Below are positions 23,579 through 33,965 of a stretch of 64,000 nt of DNA, in pieces. The notes beneath the pieces were generated by a model that saw nothing but the letters and a program-made list of their open reading frames with translations, did no database searches and had not been told where the DNA came from. A program made the translations under genes and the position numbers. Numbering within the stretch: position 1 is the stretch's first letter; the number at the start of each line of letters is the position of its first letter. The stretch lies in assembly GCA_018066285.1 (NCBI GenBank), contig JAGHRS010000008.1, positions 60,864 through 124,863 of the forward strand. Direction: 5' to 3'. The DNA comes from Candidatus Treponema caballi (GTDB taxonomy: Bacteria; Spirochaetota; Spirochaetia; Treponematales; Treponemataceae).

Positions 23579-23944
23579 TCAGCCCAGAATCTTCTTTACG
23601 ATGGCGCTCAGTTTTTCTGATGTAAATGGCTTTACAATCCATCCAGTCGCGCCAGCAGCTTTTCCTTCCTGCATCTTATCATCCTGGCTTTCTGTTGTCA
23701 GGGCAATAATTGGGGTGAATTTGTATGCAGGCATCTTTCTCAGGTTTCCGATAAGATCGATTCCGTTCATGTGAGGCATGTTGATATCAGTAATGACGAG
23801 ATTGAAAGCATCCTTTTCTGCTGCCTGAAGGCCAGTAATACCGTCATCAGCTTCGGTTACTTCATATCCCTCGTTTGAAAGAACGAATGATACGCTCTTT
23901 CTGATTGTAATGGAATCATCCACAATCAAGATTTTCTTTCCCAT
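23579..23944 (-). CDS. cheY: Chemotaxis response regulator CheY
   Basis: Single REC domain ILIVDDSITIRKSV, LVITDINMPHMNGIDL, ALTTES, WIVKPF. Confidence 0.9.
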   Translation of the reverse strand: MGKKILIVDDSITIRKSVSFVLSNEGYEVTEADDGITGLQAAEKDAFNLVITDINMPHMNGIDLIGNLRKMPAYKFTPIIALTTESQDDKMQEGKAAGATGWIVKPFTSEKLSAIVKKILG

Positions 23945-23956
23945 TTGTTCCTCTCC

Positions 23957-25048
23957 TTAGTAAATGGTTGTTCTTCTTACTATTTCTGCAGGTATTTCCC
24001 GCAGTGGCAGAATAGTGTCTACCGCACCAGCTTTTATTGCTTCGTTGGGCATGCCAAAAATAACGCACGATTTTTCATCCTGTGCGATAGTAAAGGCACC
24101 CGTTTGTTTCATTTCCAACATTCCACGTGCACCATCGTCTCCCATGCCGGTAAGTATGACACCAACAGCGTTTTTACCGGCATAACGCGAAGCTGAGCGG
24201 AAAAGGACATCAACCGAAGGCCTGTGACGTGAAACCAAAGGTCCTTCCCTTACTTCAACGTAATAACGTGCACCGCTTCTCTTTATGAGCGTGTGCTTTC
24301 CTCCGGGTGCAATAAGCGCAGTTCCCGGGATAACAGAATCGCCGTCTTTAGCTTCCTTAACATGTACTTTACTGATGCCGTCCAGTCTGTTGGCAAAGCC
24401 TTCAGTAAAGTGTTCCGGCATATGCTGGACAATGACCATTCCCGGTGCATCAGAAGGAAGAGCTGAAAGAAGTTCAGCAAGAGCTTCTGTTCCACCTGTA
24501 CTTGCACCTATGACGACAATTTTCTCTGTTGTATCGAGTGCAGTCGGGCCTTCTTTTTCAGTACGGGCAGGTCCTGCCGGCAGAATGACATCTGCAGTAA
24601 GTTTAGGATTTACTGCAAATGAAGACTCGGGTTTCTTTCCTCTGCACCTGCCCCGTGCAAGATAAGCTGCACGTACGGCGTCGCATATGAGAATGCGTGA
24701 TTCTTCAAGAAAGACCTTGGTGCCTATTTTAGGTTTCAGAATGATTTCTGAAGCACCGTACTCAATTGCCTTCATGGCATTGTGAGAGCCTTCTTCAGCC
24801 ATGCTGGAACAGATGACGACAGGAATTGGTTTCGTTTCCATTATCTGCTTGAGGAAGGAGATGCCATCCATTCGTGGCATTTCAATATCAAGCGTTATGA
24901 CATCCGGCGTAATTGTTTCAAGTTTTTTAAGTGCAATAACAGGATCTGCTGCTGTTCCCACAACTTCAAAATCTTTCTCGTCTGAAAGGATTTGAGTAAG
25001 TGTTTCGCGTACAACAGCAGAATCGTCAATAATGAAAACCTTAATCAT
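23957..25048 (-). CDS. cheB: Chemotaxis methylesterase CheB
   Basis: REC + [75 protein letters not shown]. Confidence 0.97.
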
Positions 25049-25050
25049 AC

Positions 25051-25938
25051 TCAGCAGATCTCCTTCCTGTACGCAGTCGGACCCACAGTTTTTAACGGAA
25101 GATCCATAGAGAACACTGTTTCTGAATGTCCCAGGAAAAGGTAGCCTCCCGGAATAAGGTGATACAGCAGATGTTTGATTATCTTTTCCTGCGTCGGTTT
25201 ATCAAAATATATAAGTACATTGCGGCAGAAAATTATTTCGAATTTTGCGGGAATTTCCCAGGAAGAGTCCATGAGATTAAGTCGCTGGAAACTGCATTTT
25301 GCTCGGAGTTCTGGCTTTATCCTTACGGTATGCTGTTCCTTGTCTTTGTTTCTAAGGAAATAACGGCGTTTCATCTCAAGAGGAATGCCTGAAACATCGG
25401 CTTCTGTGTACACTGCATTGACAGCTTTATCAAGTACTTCAGTTGAAATGTCTGAACCAAGAATGCTGAAGTCAGAAAAAGACTTTGAATGCGTGCGCAT
25501 GTATTCACTCATTACTATGGCGAGTGTATATGGCTCTTCTCCGCTTGAACTTGCAGATGACCACAAATGAATTGTTCTGTGTCCTTTTTCCGTAAGATCA
25601 GGAAGAACGATGTTAGCCATCGTTTCAAAATGATCAGCTTCCCTGAAAAAGTCGGTTTTGTTTGTGGTCAGTGCATTTGTCATGAAAATCAGTTCCTGAC
25701 CCGAAGTGTCTTTATTGAAGACAAAGTTCAGGTATTCTTCGTAAGAATGCATTCCAAGTGCACGGAGACGACTTGCCAGACGGGATTGCATCATGACTTT
25801 TTTCCCTTCCGGCATGCGGATACCGACGTTTTTCTGGATATAGTCAGAAATTATAGAGTAATCTTTATCTGTCAGTTCTACTGGTGTAAAAAAGTTGGGC
25901 ATTGTCAGTATCTCGTTATTACGTGTTGTTTGCGTCAA
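25051..25938 (-). CDS. cheR: Chemotaxis methyltransferase CheR
   Basis: [44 protein letters not shown]; alternative start MPNFF at 25902. Confidence 0.95.
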
Positions 25939-28144
25939 GCTCCTTCACTATTTCGGAAAGCTTGTAGATATCAAGGATGAGGGCAACAGAGCCGTCTCCA
26001 AGAATTGTTGCACCAGATATGCCTTCAACATTCTTGTACAGTTTTCCAAGCGGTTTTATTACTGTCTGGTGGTTTCCGATAACATTGTCTATGACAATAC
26101 CGATCTTTGTATCCTGATCGTTGACAATAACCATCTGCTGCTGTTCAGGTCTGCCTTCTTCCATACCGAAGAACGTGCGGAGGTCAATGTACGGAACCAT
26201 CTCGTCGCGAATCTTGATTGATGAACAGAACGCGCCTTTCCTGGTAAGAGAAGGGTCAAATGCGATGCACTGATCGACATTTGAAAGCGGCAGAACGTAA
26301 TAATGCTCTCCGTTTCTGATGAGGATTCCTTCAATAATGGCCAGTGTAAGTGGAATCTTAAGTGTAAAGCAGGTTCCTTTTCCAGCTTTTGTCGTTGTGG
26401 TGACTGTTCCACCCAAAGATGTAATGTCTTTCTTTACAACATCCATGCCGACACCGCGACCTGAAATACTTGAGACTTTATCCGCGGTAGAAAAGCCCGG
26501 TCTGAAAATCAGGTCCGCAGCTTCTTCATCAGTCAATTCATCCTGTGGGCTGATAAGTCCACGTTCAATTGCTTTAGACTTTATCTTTTCAAGGTTAAGA
26601 CCCGCGCCATCGTCTTCAATGGATATAAGGACGAATGCGCCGGCATGCTGTGCACGGAGAGTGACGGTACCAACCGGGTTCTTTCCATTCTGTTCGCGGA
26701 CTTCAGGTGCTTCAACACCGTGGTCGCAGGAGTTTCTGATAAGATGAACGAGCGGGTCGTTAAGCTTTTCAATAACGGTCTTATCAAGTTCAGTCTCAGC
26801 TCCTTCTGTGATAAGTTCAATCTGCTTGTTTGTCTGAGAGGAAAGGTCGCGGACAAGGCGTTTGAAACGGGTGAAGATTGTGCCGATCGGGAGCATGCGC
26901 ATATCCATTGTGGTATCGCGCAACTGCAGGATAAGGCGTTCTCCCTGTTCACTGAGAGTGGAGAGGGCAGAGCTGTCAATCTGTGTGGAAACCTGTGCCA
27001 TGCGTGCGTTGAATGTGACAAGTTCTCCTACGAGGTCAATGAGCATATCCAGCTTTTCGGAGTTGATCTTGATAGTCTGGTTGCTTACTTCCTGTGTTTT
27101 CTTTTCTGTCTGTTCACGCAGGTGCTTCTGTTCCGCAAGAGCTGACTGAACAGCTTCCTTACTTACAAGTTTGTTTTCTGTAAGAATGGTTCCCAGTGGT
27201 TTCTGGTTTCCGAGTGCGTGATCAATCTCTTCCTGTGTAACGAGATTTTTCTCAATGAGGATTTCACCGAGTTTTTTGGGAACCTGAGGTCCTGTTTCAT
27301 CTACTTCGGTCAGTTTGCTGATTTTTACCTTACTGCCCGGATCAAGGAAGATGAAAACATCATTTATGTCGTTTTCAGGCTTAGAAGTTGTGAGGATAAT
27401 ATCCCATGACATATAACACTGACATGGATCAATATCTTCGAGCGAAGGAATTGCACTGAAGAACGGCGTGATGGAGACTGCACCCATTTCTGCCAGTTCA
27501 GCGAGAAGCGCGTGCGGGCGGGTTCCGTTCATGAAGATATCGAGAGCTGGTTCAAAAGAAATGCGCCATGTTTTCTCGACTTCTTCCTCATTATTGTCAG
27601 GAGCGGAAGACTGTGCCATCTGGTCTTCCGGAGCTGTTTTCTGTGGTTCTGGCGTTGAAATGACAAAGGAAGAACCATTTCCTTCTGCAGGCTTTCCCTG
27701 TGGCTTTTCAGCAGCTGCCGGAACTGGCTTTTCTTCCGGTTTTGAAGCGGAACTTGTATCATTCTGCAGAAGGATGACCTGGAATTCGCTTATGAGGCGT
27801 TCAGTTTCCGCATTGATTTCAGGACTGTTCTGGTCATCAAGCATGTTACGGATGTGGTCACGTGCCTGAAGGGTAAGTGTGATGAGCTTTGAAGTGACAG
27901 CGAGACGTCCGTTTCGAACTTCATCAAATGTTGTTTCTGCTTCGTGACAGAAGTGAGAGACCTTGTCATAACCGAACATTCCGGCAGAACCCTTTATGGT
28001 ATGCATGCTTCTGAAAACAGCAGAGATTGTTTCCATATCATCCGGATGTTCTTCAAGATCGAGAAGATAGTCTTCAAGCTTATCAAGCAGGTCATTTGCC
28101 TCGTCTAAGAAGACGCCGGCCATTTTATCAAGTGATTCACTCAT
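25919..28144 (-). CDS. cheA: Chemotaxis histidine kinase CheA
   Basis: HPt FRSMHTIKGSAGMFG; HATPase LVHLIRNSCDHGVE, GRGVGMDVVKKDI; CheW-like C-terminus. Confidence 0.97.
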   Translation of the reverse strand: MSESLDKMAGVFLDEANDLLDKLEDYLLDLEEHPDDMETISAVFRSMHTIKGSAGMFGYDKVSHFCHEAETTFDEVRNGRLAVTSKLITLTLQARDHIRNMLDDQNSPEINAETERLISEFQVILLQNDTSSASKPEEKPVPAAAEKPQGKPAEGNGSSFVISTPEPQKTAPEDQMAQSSAPDNNEEEVEKTWRISFEPALDIFMNGTRPHALLAELAEMGAVSITPFFSAIPSLEDIDPCQCYMSWDIILTTSKPENDINDVFIFLDPGSKVKISKLTEVDETGPQVPKKLGEILIEKNLVTQEEIDHALGNQKPLGTILTENKLVSKEAVQSALAEQKHLREQTEKKTQEVSNQTIKINSEKLDMLIDLVGELVTFNARMAQVSTQIDSSALSTLSEQGERLILQLRDTTMDMRMLPIGTIFTRFKRLVRDLSSQTNKQIELITEGAETELDKTVIEKLNDPLVHLIRNSCDHGVEAPEVREQNGKNPVGTVTLRAQHAGAFVLISIEDDGAGLNLEKIKSKAIERGLISPQDELTDEEAADLIFRPGFSTADKVSSISGRGVGMDVVKKDITSLGGTVTTTTKAGKGTCFTLKIPLTLAIIEGILIRNGEHYYVLPLSNVDQCIAFDPSLTRKGAFCSSIKIRDEMVPYIDLRTFFGMEEGRPEQQQMVIVNDQDTKIGIVIDNVIGNHQTVIKPLGKLYKNVEGISGATILGDGSVALILDIYKLSEIVKELDANNT

Positions 28145-28454
28145 GTGCTGTCCTCATTTTTTCTTCTGTTGCTTTGATGACTTCCTCATCACCGAGGTTG
28201 GCATCAGGAATAATTCCACAGGTAAAAAGACGCTGTTTTACGCGTGGAGAAAACGGTCCCTTTGCTGTCAGCTTATGATCCTTGCAGCTTGAATAAAAGC
28301 TGTAAATAAGCTGTACAGTTGAGACATCTATATCTTCAAGTGCTGAAAAATCAAGCAGAATATCTCCTTTTTTCTGAAGTGCAGAAATCAGGATTTTCTT
28401 CAAATCATCTGCATTCTGAACGGAAAGTTCACCTTTCATCTCAATTGTAGTCAC
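28137..28454 (-). CDS. STAS-domain protein (anti-sigma antagonist-like)
   Basis: DILLDFSALEDIDVSTVQLIYSFYSSCK; GTG start. Confidence 0.8.
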   Translation of the reverse strand: MTTIEMKGELSVQNADDLKKILISALQKKGDILLDFSALEDIDVSTVQLIYSFYSSCKDHKLTAKGPFSPRVKQRLFTCGIIPDANLGDEEVIKATEEKMRTAHE

Positions 28455-28533
28455 TCTGCTTCCTCCTGTTGCTGCTTTTTTTTACTTGATTTATCAATCT
28501 GAATGCCGTAACATTGATTGTACGGAGACAAAT

Positions 28534-28995
28534 ATGAACGAATCAGCAGCAAATGCATCTTATTTCACCTTTATGTTTGGTGATGTTTCTTACGCAATTG
28601 AAGTTACTTCTGTAAAAGAAGTACTACCTTACGAAAAAATCACACCTGTACCCCGTGCTAAGGAATACATGAAAGGTGTCATGAATATCCGTGGAACCGT
28701 GATATCCGTGATTGATTTCAGAACGCTTTTCGGCCTTCCGGTTAAAGAACCGACAAAAGCGACATCCATTATCGTTGCCGAAGTGGAGCAGGAAGATGCA
28801 TCCGAGCTTTCCTTCGGTTTTATTGCTGATGACGTGAGCGGTGTCGGTCCACTTGAAATGGAACCGGCCGGCTCAGGATCCAAAACACCGTTTGTAAAAA
28901 TGCTTGGCCGCACGGAATCAGGCATGGTACTTATCCTCGATATGGATAAAATCTTCCAGTTTATCGAGGAAGATACGGAACCTAAAACCAAGTAA
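28534..28995 (+). CDS. cheW: Chemotaxis coupling protein CheW
   Basis: FGDVSYAIEVTSVKEVLPYEKITPVPRAKEYMKGVMNIRGTVISVIDFRTLFG. Confidence 0.95.
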   Translation: MNESAANASYFTFMFGDVSYAIEVTSVKEVLPYEKITPVPRAKEYMKGVMNIRGTVISVIDFRTLFGLPVKEPTKATSIIVAEVEQEDASELSFGFIADDVSGVGPLEMEPAGSGSKTPFVKMLGRTESGMVLILDMDKIFQFIEEDTEPKTK

Positions 28996-29575
28996 TGTTG
29001 CCAGCACTCTTCCTTGATTCCTGCAAGGAAGACTGATAATTTTCATCCCGCTTTGTGATTGCCTCAATCGCATCTCCGGTTTTCTGGATGCGCTTGAGGT
29101 ACACTTTGCTTGTCAGCGGGTTGAAGTATATTTTCCGCGGAAAAATTCCGCCTGTATCATTAACAAGAACCGGTATCTTTTCTTCTTCAAGATATGAAAG
29201 CGCAAAGTTGATGTTGTTGATGCCGGTCATGTTCATCTGTTCATTAGTTGTTTCCAATACGCTTGATCCACCAAAAACCTTTGCACGCAAATCTTCATGA
29301 CGTGAACCGTTTTTCAGCATATCGTTAATCAGAAGTTCCATGGCAAAATCACCAAATCGTCCTTCATCTTCAGAAGAAACCGGAGAATGCTTATTTGATT
29401 TTGGAAGCATGAAATGATTGAGTCCGCCGAATTTGTTTACGGAATCATACAAGGCAATGCTTATGCATGAACCAAGAACGGTCGCGATAAACAGATCGTC
29501 CTTACTGGTGAGGAACTCGCCCGGGTGAATGGTGATTATATCTTTCTGAAAATGCGGATCAAAATGCCTGTTCAC
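28982..29575 (-). CDS. cheD: Chemoreceptor glutamine deamidase CheD
   Basis: ATVLGSCISIALYDSVNKFGGLNHFMLP; AKVFGGSSVL. Confidence 0.93.
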   Translation of the reverse strand: MNRHFDPHFQKDIITIHPGEFLTSKDDLFIATVLGSCISIALYDSVNKFGGLNHFMLPKSNKHSPVSSEDEGRFGDFAMELLINDMLKNGSRHEDLRAKVFGGSSVLETTNEQMNMTGINNINFALSYLEEEKIPVLVNDTGGIFPRKIYFNPLTSKVYLKRIQKTGDAIEAITKRDENYQSSLQESRKSAGNITWF

Positions 29576-29586
29576 TCAACCTGCCT

Positions 29587-31338
29587 CTAAAAGAATGTTA
29601 TGTCTCCGGCGTCTGTGCCTTGCTGGACATCAACACCAGCGACGCTGCCTGCTTCAAGTTTGTCTTCTGTAATGGTGAAATGCCCGATGAAGTCGAGAAT
29701 ATCCTGGTTGTGGATTTCAATGTTTTCAAGGCTGTATTCATTCTTGACTTCTGCACACTTGTTTTCGTGATATTCGAGCAGTTCGTTGACAGACTCTGTT
29801 GCTTCTGTAAGTTTTTCTGAAAGTTCCATGAGGCTGCCCATAAGTTCATCTATACGGTTGTATGATGTGAAGAATTCCGGAGTATAGATGGTAACTGACT
29901 TAACTGATGAAGTAAGTTTGTCATAAGCAGATTCAAGTGCACTTGAATAAGACAGTTTCTGCTCATCAACGGTACTGAAGTTTATTTTGTCTGCTGCAGA
30001 CCTCTCAAGGAAGAGATCGATTTCCTGCGTGACGGCATCAGTATAGTCAGAAAGCTTCTTCTGGGCAGTGTTGACGTCTTCCTTGGTACTTTCAATGATA
30101 TTGGACATGTGTTCTACAGTGTCCTTGATGCTTGCAATGGCTTCGTTTCTTGCAACTTCAATGCGCTGTGCAATTGCTACATAGTTGAGCATTGTAGTAA
30201 TAGGCATGAAGCCTGAGAATACTTTTGACATGTTGGCAACATCATGCTGGATGTTGTTGACTGCTTCCATGACTTTGTTCTGAATGGTCTGATATGACTT
30301 GAAAAGGGTAGAGAACCGTTCAAAATCCTCAACTGCCTCAACCATGCGGCTTTTAAGCTGTTTAAGTTCGTTGTCTGTGTTCTCACTGGCGTTTGTGAAG
30401 CTTTCAACAGTGTCGTTTATGTCGTAAAGTATCTGGTTTGCAGCCATCTGATTTGTAGTAAACGTGTTGATGCTGTTATCAAGTTTTTCCTGGATGCGTG
30501 AAAGGCAGCGGGAACAGATTGTTGCAAGTCGTGTATTTGCCGTGTATTGCTCAAGTCTGGCAATTGGATCTGCATCGTCAGCAGGATCTGTAATCTTGTT
30601 GATTGCGATGAGGACATCATCAAGTGACTGTCTGATTATGTCCTGCATCTGAATGCCTTCCATAGCTTTGATGATAGGATGCTTTACTTCCTTTGCCTGT
30701 TCAATGATGGTGCCAAGCTTGTCGGTGATGCGGTTTGATGCTTCAAGCATACCTTCGTTTGAATCGGTTATCTTCTTCTCACCGTCTTCGTTTACGCTGT
30801 CAGTTGCCTGAATCTGAGCCTGGAAATCAGCGAGTGATTCCTGAATGCTTGACCTGCAGGTAAAAAGAGCTTCTGACTGGGTAATCAGACGCAGAGACAT
30901 TTCCTTAAGGTTGGAAGTGATGTAACTGAATGCCTGTCCGGCTTTTCCTGAGTGAATGGATACGACCATTGCATTGAGGGAAATGACTTCCATTTCCTCA
31001 CTGCCGTCTTTTATTCCAAGGATTATCTGCTGGACATCGTCAAGAAGATGCGTGTTATTGGTAAAACTTGCGAACAGATCAGAGTTTTTGGTTCTGATGG
31101 AGTTAAGGAATGCTATGTTTTTTGAAAGAAGTTCTTCCTGCTGTTTCAACAGATGCTGGAGGTCCCTCTGTATGTGGCTGAATTCCTCAAATGCAGCGTT
31201 CGAGTGCCCGCTTTTTCCTGTGGCATCAATTTCCTGGATAAGGACAGGAAAAGTGTCGCTCAGCTCAAGGAATTCCTTTTCGCTTTCGTCGCTGATGTAT
31301 TTAAGCTTTTCATAAATCTCTCTCTTGTCAATTGCCAT
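29587..31338 (-). CDS. Soluble coiled-coil protein with MCP-like hairpin motifs
   Basis: Long predicted coiled coils; MEVISLNAMVVSIHSGKAGQAFSYITSNLKEMS resembles an MCP signalling hairpin; no TM segment. Confidence 0.65.
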   Translation of the reverse strand: MAIDKREIYEKLKYISDESEKEFLELSDTFPVLIQEIDATGKSGHSNAAFEEFSHIQRDLQHLLKQQEELLSKNIAFLNSIRTKNSDLFASFTNNTHLLDDVQQIILGIKDGSEEMEVISLNAMVVSIHSGKAGQAFSYITSNLKEMSLRLITQSEALFTCRSSIQESLADFQAQIQATDSVNEDGEKKITDSNEGMLEASNRITDKLGTIIEQAKEVKHPIIKAMEGIQMQDIIRQSLDDVLIAINKITDPADDADPIARLEQYTANTRLATICSRCLSRIQEKLDNSINTFTTNQMAANQILYDINDTVESFTNASENTDNELKQLKSRMVEAVEDFERFSTLFKSYQTIQNKVMEAVNNIQHDVANMSKVFSGFMPITTMLNYVAIAQRIEVARNEAIASIKDTVEHMSNIIESTKEDVNTAQKKLSDYTDAVTQEIDLFLERSAADKINFSTVDEQKLSYSSALESAYDKLTSSVKSVTIYTPEFFTSYNRIDELMGSLMELSEKLTEATESVNELLEYHENKCAEVKNEYSLENIEIHNQDILDFIGHFTITEDKLEAGSVAGVDVQQGTDAGDITFF

Positions 31339-31342
31339 TTTT

Positions 31343-32326
31343 TTACCTGTCTCTCTCCTGATGTTCGTAATACGACTTGATTATCTCCTCGAAGTTTTCC
31401 AGTGCTTCTTCGAGCCTCATATCTGTATGGTCTGATGCGGCCTCTATTCGTTTAACTACTGCGGGAAGAGCCTGTGAAAAAGCTGATCCCGGATTAAGAA
31501 GGCAGAGTGGCTGTCTTCTTGCAATTGAAATACCAATGTTCTGGTCATAGGGCACGAAACCGATTACTTCCGGATTGATTGAAAGCTTATTACGCGAAAG
31601 TGTCAGAAGTCTGTTTCCAAGAACAGCATCATCGCCTTGTCTTCCCATGTTCATGATGATACGTGGTTTGAAAGATTTAAGCTGATTGAGTGCAAGTTCG
31701 GCACTCTCTGGAAATGTTGCTCCAATGACAGAAAGAATCTGTTCGAAAGAGTATTCCTTTCCTTCCATACGCTGCAGTACGCTGTTCTGGAGTATCTGAC
31801 GTTCCGGGCTTTTTGACGGGAATGTGCGGTAAAGAAGGCGGAAAACAGTCGTCTTGAGAAAAGAATAAGCATTGAGAATAGATGTAAGTTCTGGTGTAAC
31901 GACGATGATTCCGTCGTTGGTTGTAATGAAGAAATCTACTATATTGTAAGTTGAACCTGCTCCAAGGTCGAGGATGATGTAATCTGCATCAAGAGCCTGA
32001 ATGTTTCTGAGTATCTTGCATTTCGTAAAGAAATCCATATTTGCGACACCAGGGTACAGACAGTCTCCGGCAATGAACTGAAGATTCGGAATGCCGGTGG
32101 CCTGGAGAAGATTTGAGAAGTCTGTTTCCTGCTTTGTAATGAATGTGCCAATTCCAGCCTGATTATTTTTAAGGCCAAGCAGTGTATGCAGATTTGCACC
32201 ACCAAGGTCTAAATCAACGAGAATTGTTTTTTTGCATTGTTGGGCCAGTGTAACAGCCAGATTGAGCGATAAGACACTTTTTCCAACGCCGCCTTTTCCA
32301 CCTGCAACAGGTATCAATACAGCCAT
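31343..32326 (-). CDS. MinD/ParA-like (deviant Walker A) ATPase
   Basis: GGKGGVGKSVLSLNLAVTLAQ, LVDLDLGGANLHTLLG, YIILDLGAGSTYNIVDF. Confidence 0.88.
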   Translation of the reverse strand: MAVLIPVAGGKGGVGKSVLSLNLAVTLAQQCKKTILVDLDLGGANLHTLLGLKNNQAGIGTFITKQETDFSNLLQATGIPNLQFIAGDCLYPGVANMDFFTKCKILRNIQALDADYIILDLGAGSTYNIVDFFITTNDGIIVVTPELTSILNAYSFLKTTVFRLLYRTFPSKSPERQILQNSVLQRMEGKEYSFEQILSVIGATFPESAELALNQLKSFKPRIIMNMGRQGDDAVLGNRLLTLSRNKLSINPEVIGFVPYDQNIGISIARRQPLCLLNPGSAFSQALPAVVKRIEAASDHTDMRLEEALENFEEIIKSYYEHQERDR

Positions 32327-32438: not shown

Positions 32439-32459
32439 GAAAATAAAGTGAGGGTTTAT

Positions 32460-33965
32460 ATGCGCTTAAGAAGAAAGTTGGGACTCAGTATTATTTCAAT
32501 CTGTCTGATAATGTTTGTCATGCTTATCTTATCAGTGGTAAGTTCGACACATACCATACAGAAACTTATGGTACTTGTCACAGGTTATTTACAGACTTCT
32601 TCAGATTCTGCAGAAAATATTGCGTCATTCCAGATGTCATTAAGTTCTTATGGAAGTGTTCTGAAGACGCAGATGTCGGTTGTCATTGTCCAGGGAGCAC
32701 TTGGTTTACTATTGAGTATTCTTATTGGTTACCTTATGGGTAAGGCAATTGTGAAACCCCTGAATTTGTTCCTTAAAGAATTCAGCTGCCTTACTAAGGG
32801 AGATCTTACGCTTGATGGTATCTCTGAAAAAGATAGAAAGAAGGTTTCCGCCCAGAAGGATGAGCTTGGAGAGCTCGGCCGCGGCATTGATGTCCTTATC
32901 GAGAACTTTGCCAATGTTCTGTATCAGGTTCAGGAATCAAGCAAGAATGTCGCTGTTGGCGCAAAGGAAATAAGCAAAGGAAGCCAGGCTATATCATCAG
33001 ATTCTTCGACTCAGGCGTCTTTCGCTGAGGAGATTTCTTCTACTGTTGAAGAAATGGCTTCAAATATACGTCGCAACGCTGATAACTCATCTCAGTCAGA
33101 TGCCATTGCGCAGAAAGTGCTTGAAGCTGGAAAGCGTGGTAGTGAGGCTGTTACTCAGACAGTTGATGCCATGCATCAGATTGCCGATAAGATTTCCATC
33201 ATTGAAGATATTTCAAGTCAGACAAACAGACTTGCCCTTAATGCTGCTATTGAAGCTGCCCGTGCTGGAGAAGCCGGTCGCGGATTTGCTGTTGTTGCAA
33301 GTGAAGTAAGAAAACTTGCGGAACGCAGCCAGAATGCTGCAGTTGAAATTGGCGATCTGTCACACAACAGTGTTGAGGTCGCTGAGGAGACAGGCCGCAT
33401 CTTTGAGGAAATGGTCCCTGATATAGCCCGCACTGCAGATCTGACTCAGGAAATTGCGGCCGCAGCGCGTGAAGAAGATGTTGGCGCACAGCAGATTAAT
33501 AAGGCTGTTGTTGAACTTGATACACTTGTTCAGAAAGGAGCAACGGCGTCCGAAGAGTTTGCTTCAGTTTCAGAGGAACTGTCTGCTCAGGCAGAAAAAC
33601 TCGTTGAAGTGCTTGGTTTCTTTAAGTTCACAGCAACTCAGCCTAAAAAAGAACAGCCGAAAATCGCCGCTCCATCCTCTCGTAAGGCGCTGCCTTCAGC
33701 TCCGAAACCAGAGACTCCAAAGGCTGCTCCAAAAGCCGCCGTTAAAAGTGTGGCAGAGGAAAAGCCTGTACAGAAGCCGCCTGTACAAAAGCCAGTTCTT
33801 GCTCCGGAACCGAAGGAAGAGCCTGTTCCAGGAAGTGAGACAGCGGCTGCGGCTGAGCCTGCAAGCCAGGATGATGATCCATTCTTCAGCTCAAAGATAA
33901 GCCGGCAGGGAAGCGGATATGTTCCGGCAGAATTTGTTTCAGATTCAGACTTTGAGGAATTCTGA
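32460..33965 (+). CDS. Methyl-accepting chemotaxis protein with minimal periplasmic domain
   Basis: Two TM helices, HAMP, signalling hairpin [43 protein letters not shown]. Confidence 0.95.

Follow-up and report, generated by a model that had tools for sequence, protein, structure and literature searches.

The window, i.e., the whole stretch of 64,000 nucleotides analyzed here, is part of a 2.9-Mb Treponemataceae genome (contig C47) and encodes a chemotaxis gene cluster in which transcription runs leftward from position 32326 through the genes for an ATPase, a 583-aa coiled-coil protein, cheD, a STAS-domain protein, cheA, cheR, cheB and cheY. The genes and features are:

32448-33965, plus strand: divergent transmembrane MCP (Pfam MCPsignal, 110 bits)
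31343-32326, minus strand: class A ParA/MinD-type ATPase, 327 aa (Pfam CbiA, tree, Walker A)
29587-31338, minus strand: BB0569-family soluble receptor-like coiled-coil protein, 583 aa (NF052273, AlphaFold)
30895-31002, minus strand: first hairpin tip of this protein, residues 113-148, turn around G131 (hhalign, invariant residues, AlphaFold turn at 130)
30094-30219, minus strand: second predicted hairpin, residues 374-415, turn at 398 (AlphaFold; MCP homology not established)
29590-29685, minus strand: conserved C-terminal tail, residues 552-583, consensus FTI..HK..AG......E.G...GDITFF-COOH
28982-29575, minus strand: cheD, 197 aa (Pfam CheD, 103 bits)
28985-29008, minus strand: C-terminal tail of CheD, SAGNITWF, residues 190-197
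28486-28995, plus strand: cheW (Pfam CheW)
28137-28454, minus strand: STAS-domain protein (Pfam STAS), the counterpart of bb0566, which has the same place in the Borrelia cluster
25919-28144, minus strand: cheA, of the CheA1 type of Borrelia
25051-25938, minus strand: cheR
23957-25048, minus strand: cheB
23579-23944, minus strand: cheY

As described in the original prediction, the genes of the ATPase and of the 583-aa protein are both located on the minus strand and are separated by a gap of 4 bp (TAA-AAAA-ATG between the open reading frames). The pair also adjoins cheD and, as transcription proceeds from the ATPase via the coiled-coil protein to cheD, lies upstream of it. A second CheA of the same genome is encoded elsewhere (contig C5), so that the cluster represents one of two chemosensory systems. 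The cheW gene is inverted in the otherwise leftward cluster and shares 14 bp with the 3' end of cheD, an inversion that recurs in many relatives. The divergent MCP ends with DFEEF, i.e., with the CheR-tether-like pattern xFxxF, and this tail is common to most treponeme MCPs in the loci compared.

The assignment of the first gene to the ParA/MinD-type ATPases was borne out by a Pfam CbiA match of 56 bits (cut-off 25.4). The deviant Walker A motif GKGGVGK[ST] is kept in 15 class A orthologues, in which K11, K16, D38, D40 and D120 are invariant, i.e., the signature lysine and the aspartates are present. Spirochaetia encode up to three related ATPases, namely FlhG, a 380-aa protein found nearly everywhere, and class A, which forms one clade (17 rows, support 92/94) apart from the 380-aa paralogue and FlhG. 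This clade takes in a protein of Borrelia whose gene lies between trkH/trkA and pfk and which is probably BB0726 (strain B31); no mention of BB0726 was found in the literature searched. The solved structures nearest to the ATPase are those of FlhG/FleN and MinD and not of Soj-type ParA. Class A differs from FlhG as it constitutes a separate clade that coexists with FlhG and as, by inspection, it is devoid of an amphipathic C-terminal membrane helix and has an acidic tail instead; amphipathic, FFKKIMGKK-like tails are found on the FlhG paralogues. Outside of the Treponemataceae, class A genes sit among housekeeping genes (TsaD, PFK). The unlinked class A gene adjoins the phosphofructokinase gene in Borrelia and in genome G096 (L095, L098), with differing orientations.

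As judged from its sequence, the 583-aa protein belongs to the BB0569 family over its full length, albeit as a distant member. It matches the NCBIfam model NF052273 (BB0569) with an E-value of 3e-14 and 52 bits, residues 8-549 aligning to model positions 17-554, and as the equivalog cut-off of 1000 bits is not reached, it is a distant BB0569 homologue and no certified equivalog. Family searches were done with the 583-aa query and an alignment of 21 relatives. NF052273 was matched by 16 of the 21 family members, and Pfam MCPsignal by 17 of the 21 at E ≤ 0.001, the member from the window, for which no Pfam match was obtained at this threshold, not being among them; the Borrelia and Leptospira members score 21.2 and 25.5 bits toward PF00015, below the gathering cut-off of 34.6. 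The protein had been described as free of TM segments, and this was confirmed (highest 19-residue Kyte-Doolittle mean 1.14): neither TM segments nor a HAMP domain were found by Pfam and hydropathy, and Pfam gave no match to a CheW domain. It shares with the BB0569 family that it is TM-free, that it is predicted to be an all-helical rod and that it has an MCP-like tip. The bb0569 mutant is said to lose the polar receptor clusters, reportedly in work of Zhang et al. in J Bacteriol of 2016.

BB0569 of Borrelia burgdorferi is described as an atypical soluble MCP essential for chemotaxis (PMC10703414) and as polar in Borrelia (PMC5318424). The gene order found here for Borrelia, cheW-STAS-cheA-cheB-X-cheY with X as the BB0569-type gene, is identical to the published order cheW2-bb0566-cheA1-cheB2-bb0569-cheY2 (PMC10703414). 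In Leptospira the BB0569-type gene is followed by the genes for a STAS protein, cheY, cheA, cheW, cheR, cheD and cheB. Usually one BB0569-type copy per genome is present in part of the Treponemataceae. Of the genomes drawn, all 16 of the Borrelia family and nearly all of the Leptospiraceae encode the protein, which was also found in other Spirochaetota; the family names of the drawn genomes were inferred, partly from gene order and named loci. The original prediction's naming of the pair as a candidate for an undescribed system was too strong, as the coiled-coil protein belongs, by its full-length match to NF052273, to a published family.

Two segments of the 583-aa protein had been proposed to resemble the MCP tip. 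The first proved to be an MCP-tip homologue, with an hhalign probability of 96% (E 3e-9; reversed control 0.4%) and with the exact turn register of MCPs in the profile comparison. Its residues N122, G131 and G134 are invariant in the family, and the residues matching N381, G390, G393 and F396 of Tsr are kept, while E385 is lost. By sequence homology, one MCP tip is present in the 583-aa protein. For the second segment, the hhalign probability was 1.5%, compared with 1.9% for the reversed control; a second tip homologous to MCPs was rejected upon this negative profile comparison, and the segment is retained merely as predicted hairpin. Its turn at 398 is preceded by the invariant residues I393-E394, and a position-specific scan, which is suggestive only, puts the MCP turn in the register of the second hairpin (z 2.7, rank 5 of about 536 offsets); the second hairpin might be a degenerate MCP tip. 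A profile comparison of the two halves for internal duplication was not significant. The AlphaFold model is all-helical (mean pLDDT 84.7, pTM 0.57) with sharp turns at 130 and 398, and the Borrelia member, whose separate model was based on an alignment of mostly the same sequences, has its turns at 141 and 403 (mean pLDDT 82.3), resulting in a similar predicted fold of both members. Two hairpins per chain are thus predicted by two models, and both may be packed into one four-helix rod. A Foldseek search against the PDB retrieved generic long coiled coils, with MCPs at an E-value of 0.035 or worse, and as it matches generic coiled coils it speaks neither for nor against an MCP fold.

The C-terminal tail of the 583-aa protein recurs in CheD. 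A terminus of the type G-x-[IVFL]-T-x-F(F) was found on 75 family ORFs, with GEITFF and GDITFF being the commonest, and on 13 of about 1800 other ORFs of the loci (≥150 aa), all of which encode CheD, including that of the window with SAGNITWF. The MCP encoded beside class A in genome G203 ends with SGDVTLF; it fits the pattern but fell into the family search set and is therefore not among the 13. Sites of the tail G-[DE]-[IV]-T-x-F were noted at 28985-29008, L093:6520-7914 and L086:15560-16153, in CheD, the BB0569 family and the G203 MCP. Among the CheD tails there are variants: that of another Treponema group is AGDIVWF, that of Leptospira SDITLF and that of a clade without class A G.PILF, and CheD of the T. 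saccharophilum group has lost the tail. The tail may act as a docking motif common to the receptor-like protein and CheD. Docking of the ParA-type ATPase was rejected as its main role, since Leptospira and the clade lacking class A both retain the tail; as the tail outlives class A, its binder is probably another protein. A reading as CheR pentapeptide was also discarded, since position 2 is not aromatic.

The original prediction expected the pair to be conserved beside chemotaxis genes, and this was found. The comparison covered 62 loci, taken from named genomes: T. saccharophilum, T. berlinense and T. zioleckii, Candidatus species and a large number of gut MAGs. In 46 of the 58 Treponema-group loci with room, the ATPase gene immediately precedes the BB0569-type gene (within 200 bp); cheD is adjacent to the BB0569-type gene in 44/58, and cheA lies within the available locus DNA in 36/62. 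Co-occurrence was analyzed for the Spirochaetia of a draw of 247 genomes, with the ATPase class assigned by tree for sequences in the tree and by length and score for the rest: 29 genomes encode both proteins, none the BB0569-type protein only, two class A only and 38 neither (Fisher p 2e-17, kinship ignored). When mapped on a tree of the 380-aa paralogue as proxy, the distribution of "both" and "neither" requires at least eight changes, and the co-inheritance persists where the genes are unlinked, as in Borrelia and in genomes G194, G130, G063 and G169. The two genomes with class A and without BB0569-type protein are G203, in which the class A gene adjoins an MCP gene within another che cluster, and G096. 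Eleven species that form one clade, among them Brucepastera parasyntrophica with its complete genome, have the BB0569-type protein and CheD without class A, and a CheA1-type CheA was found in 10 of the 11; this clade rules out a universal pair. Leptospira likewise has the BB0569-type protein in a che operon and is devoid of class A, and these two cases argue that the ATPase is dispensable for the basic function of the BB0569-type protein. The CheA1-type kinase tracks the same presence pattern as the pair, so that much of the co-occurrence signal represents module membership and is in part explained by the CheA1 module being gained or lost as a whole.

The pairing of a ParA-type ATPase with a soluble chemoreceptor in a che operon is already known from PpfA and TlpT of Rhodobacter sphaeroides (PMC3964821). 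There, as in the window, the ParA-type gene lies beside the gene of a soluble chemoreceptor in the che operon of a second system (PMC3964821, PMC2829493), and of 206 species, 77 were reported to carry ppfA homologues in their che operons (PMC2829493). According to its description, TlpT forms a classical MCP coiled coil, whereas the rod of the window is predicted to consist of two hairpins in one chain; among solved structures, the ATPase is nearer to MinD/FlhG. TlpC of R. sphaeroides resembles the 583-aa protein by description, being soluble, receptor-like, 580 aa in length and without HAMP or methylation region (PMC3964821). ParC and ParP of Vibrio also combine a ParA-type ATPase with an array-integrating adaptor (PMC5706961); however, ParP enters the array via its CheW-like AIF domain, whereas the 583-aa protein has an MCP-type tip and no CheW domain. 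BB0569 itself shares with the 583-aa protein the full-length family match, the solubility, the cluster with STAS, CheA1, CheB and CheY and the two predicted hairpins, but the identity is only about 16% and the match lies far under the equivalog cut-off. In Borrelia, unlike in the window, the cluster contains neither cheR nor cheD, and the orthologue of the ATPase is not linked to it.

We slightly favor the reading that the pair is a positioning and scaffold part, similar to PpfA/TlpT, of the second, CheA1-type chemosensory system. The 583-aa protein would be a cytoplasmic BB0569-family rod, in which one chain forms two long helical hairpins, and at least one hairpin with an MCP-type tip would join the receptor/CheA/CheW lattice. 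The ATPase would act as a dimerizing ParA/MinD-type switch without membrane-anchoring tail; genomic linkage, co-inheritance and analogy suggest that it may bind the rod, or a cluster formed by the rod, and may serve to place or partition the array, at the poles as well as at future division sites. By analogy, the rod would take the role that TlpT has for PpfA, or ParP for ParC, and its C-terminal tail might dock the 583-aa protein and CheD on a common partner. As it is encoded beside a BB0569 relative in many spirochaetes, the ATPase is a good candidate for placing the polar receptor cluster, an array-positioning role that is suggested by analogy. In B. burgdorferi, CheA1-GFP is polar and shifts among poles, mid-cell and puncta during growth, and the authors already proposed testing Par proteins (PMC10703414). 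Their vague suggestion of a Par role in CheA1 localization is narrowed here to a single gene (PMC10703414): the solitary MinD-like gene of Borrelia is orthologous to the Treponema ATPase and encodes a candidate partner for BB0569. The finding is useful mainly because it names this testable partner. As far as could be found, there is no earlier description of the ATPase as a partner, of its orthology with the Borrelia protein or of the co-inheritance.

A more specific reading, which we hold to be doubtful, is that one BB0569-family chain acts as an asymmetric pseudo-dimer in the lattice, as cargo adaptor of the ATPase and as carrier of a CheD-like docking tail. The pseudo-dimer would consist of both hairpins, their four arms being about 120-140 residues long; one hairpin retains the tip residues N, G, G and F, and the other a stretch I-E-x-A-[RK]. 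If true, array entry, an adaptation enzyme and a positioning ATPase would meet on one soluble rod, and the single-chain two-hairpin design is something that structure determination could address.

Against positioning of the array by the ATPase it can be held that the BB0569-type protein is the array component, while the ATPase positions something else, such as the chromosome, the division site or the flagella, and is merely co-transcribed and co-inherited with the second chemosensory module. Solitary class A genes in housekeeping neighborhoods, class A alone in G203 and G096 with the reverse in the 11-species clade, and FlhG/MinD as closest solved relatives in place of Soj-type ParA fit to this; but among the drawn Spirochaetia the BB0569-type protein never occurs without the ATPase, over at least eight changes and also in the unlinked cases, the genomes have FlhG and the 380-aa paralogue in any case, and we regard another cargo as rather unlikely. 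Still less probable, in our estimate, is that the ATPase regulates assembly or signaling of the array, e.g., the activity of CheD or CheA1, in a manner similar to FlhG/FleN. Its sequence being nearer to FlhG/FleN than to Soj, the operon place beside the receptor-like gene and cheD and the missing membrane tail would agree with regulation. To our knowledge there is no precedent for a MinD-type regulator of CheA or CheD, which counts against it, and the precedents PpfA and ParC are positional (PMC3964821, PMC5706961).

That the coiled-coil protein is no relative of chemoreceptors, its resemblance to MCPs being convergence of coiled coils, is very improbable. The window member has no Pfam match at E ≤ 0.001 and Foldseek matches generic coiled coils, with MCPs at an E-value of 0.035 or worse, which would fit such convergence, but the tip profile with its reversed control and exact turn register (96% versus 0.4%) largely refutes it, MCPsignal is matched by 17/21 members, and the Borrelia homologue is described as functioning in chemotaxis (PMC10703414).

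Some observations touch on individual genomes. In G244 (L080:655-2448) the BB0569-type protein and class A are encoded, and no CheD or CheA1-type CheA was found; its BB0569-type ORF is without the C-terminal tail. The 380-aa MinD-like protein, which has a basic coiled-coil C-terminus, is encoded in most Spirochaetia drawn (L104, L103, L102 and others), including a genome of the size of T. pallidum. In the complete genome of Brucepastera parasyntrophica a broken ParA gene was considered as class A and rejected, as it belongs to the 380-aa class; this paralogue is split over two frames (L207, G252:C1:1349810-1350650), by a frameshift or a sequencing error.
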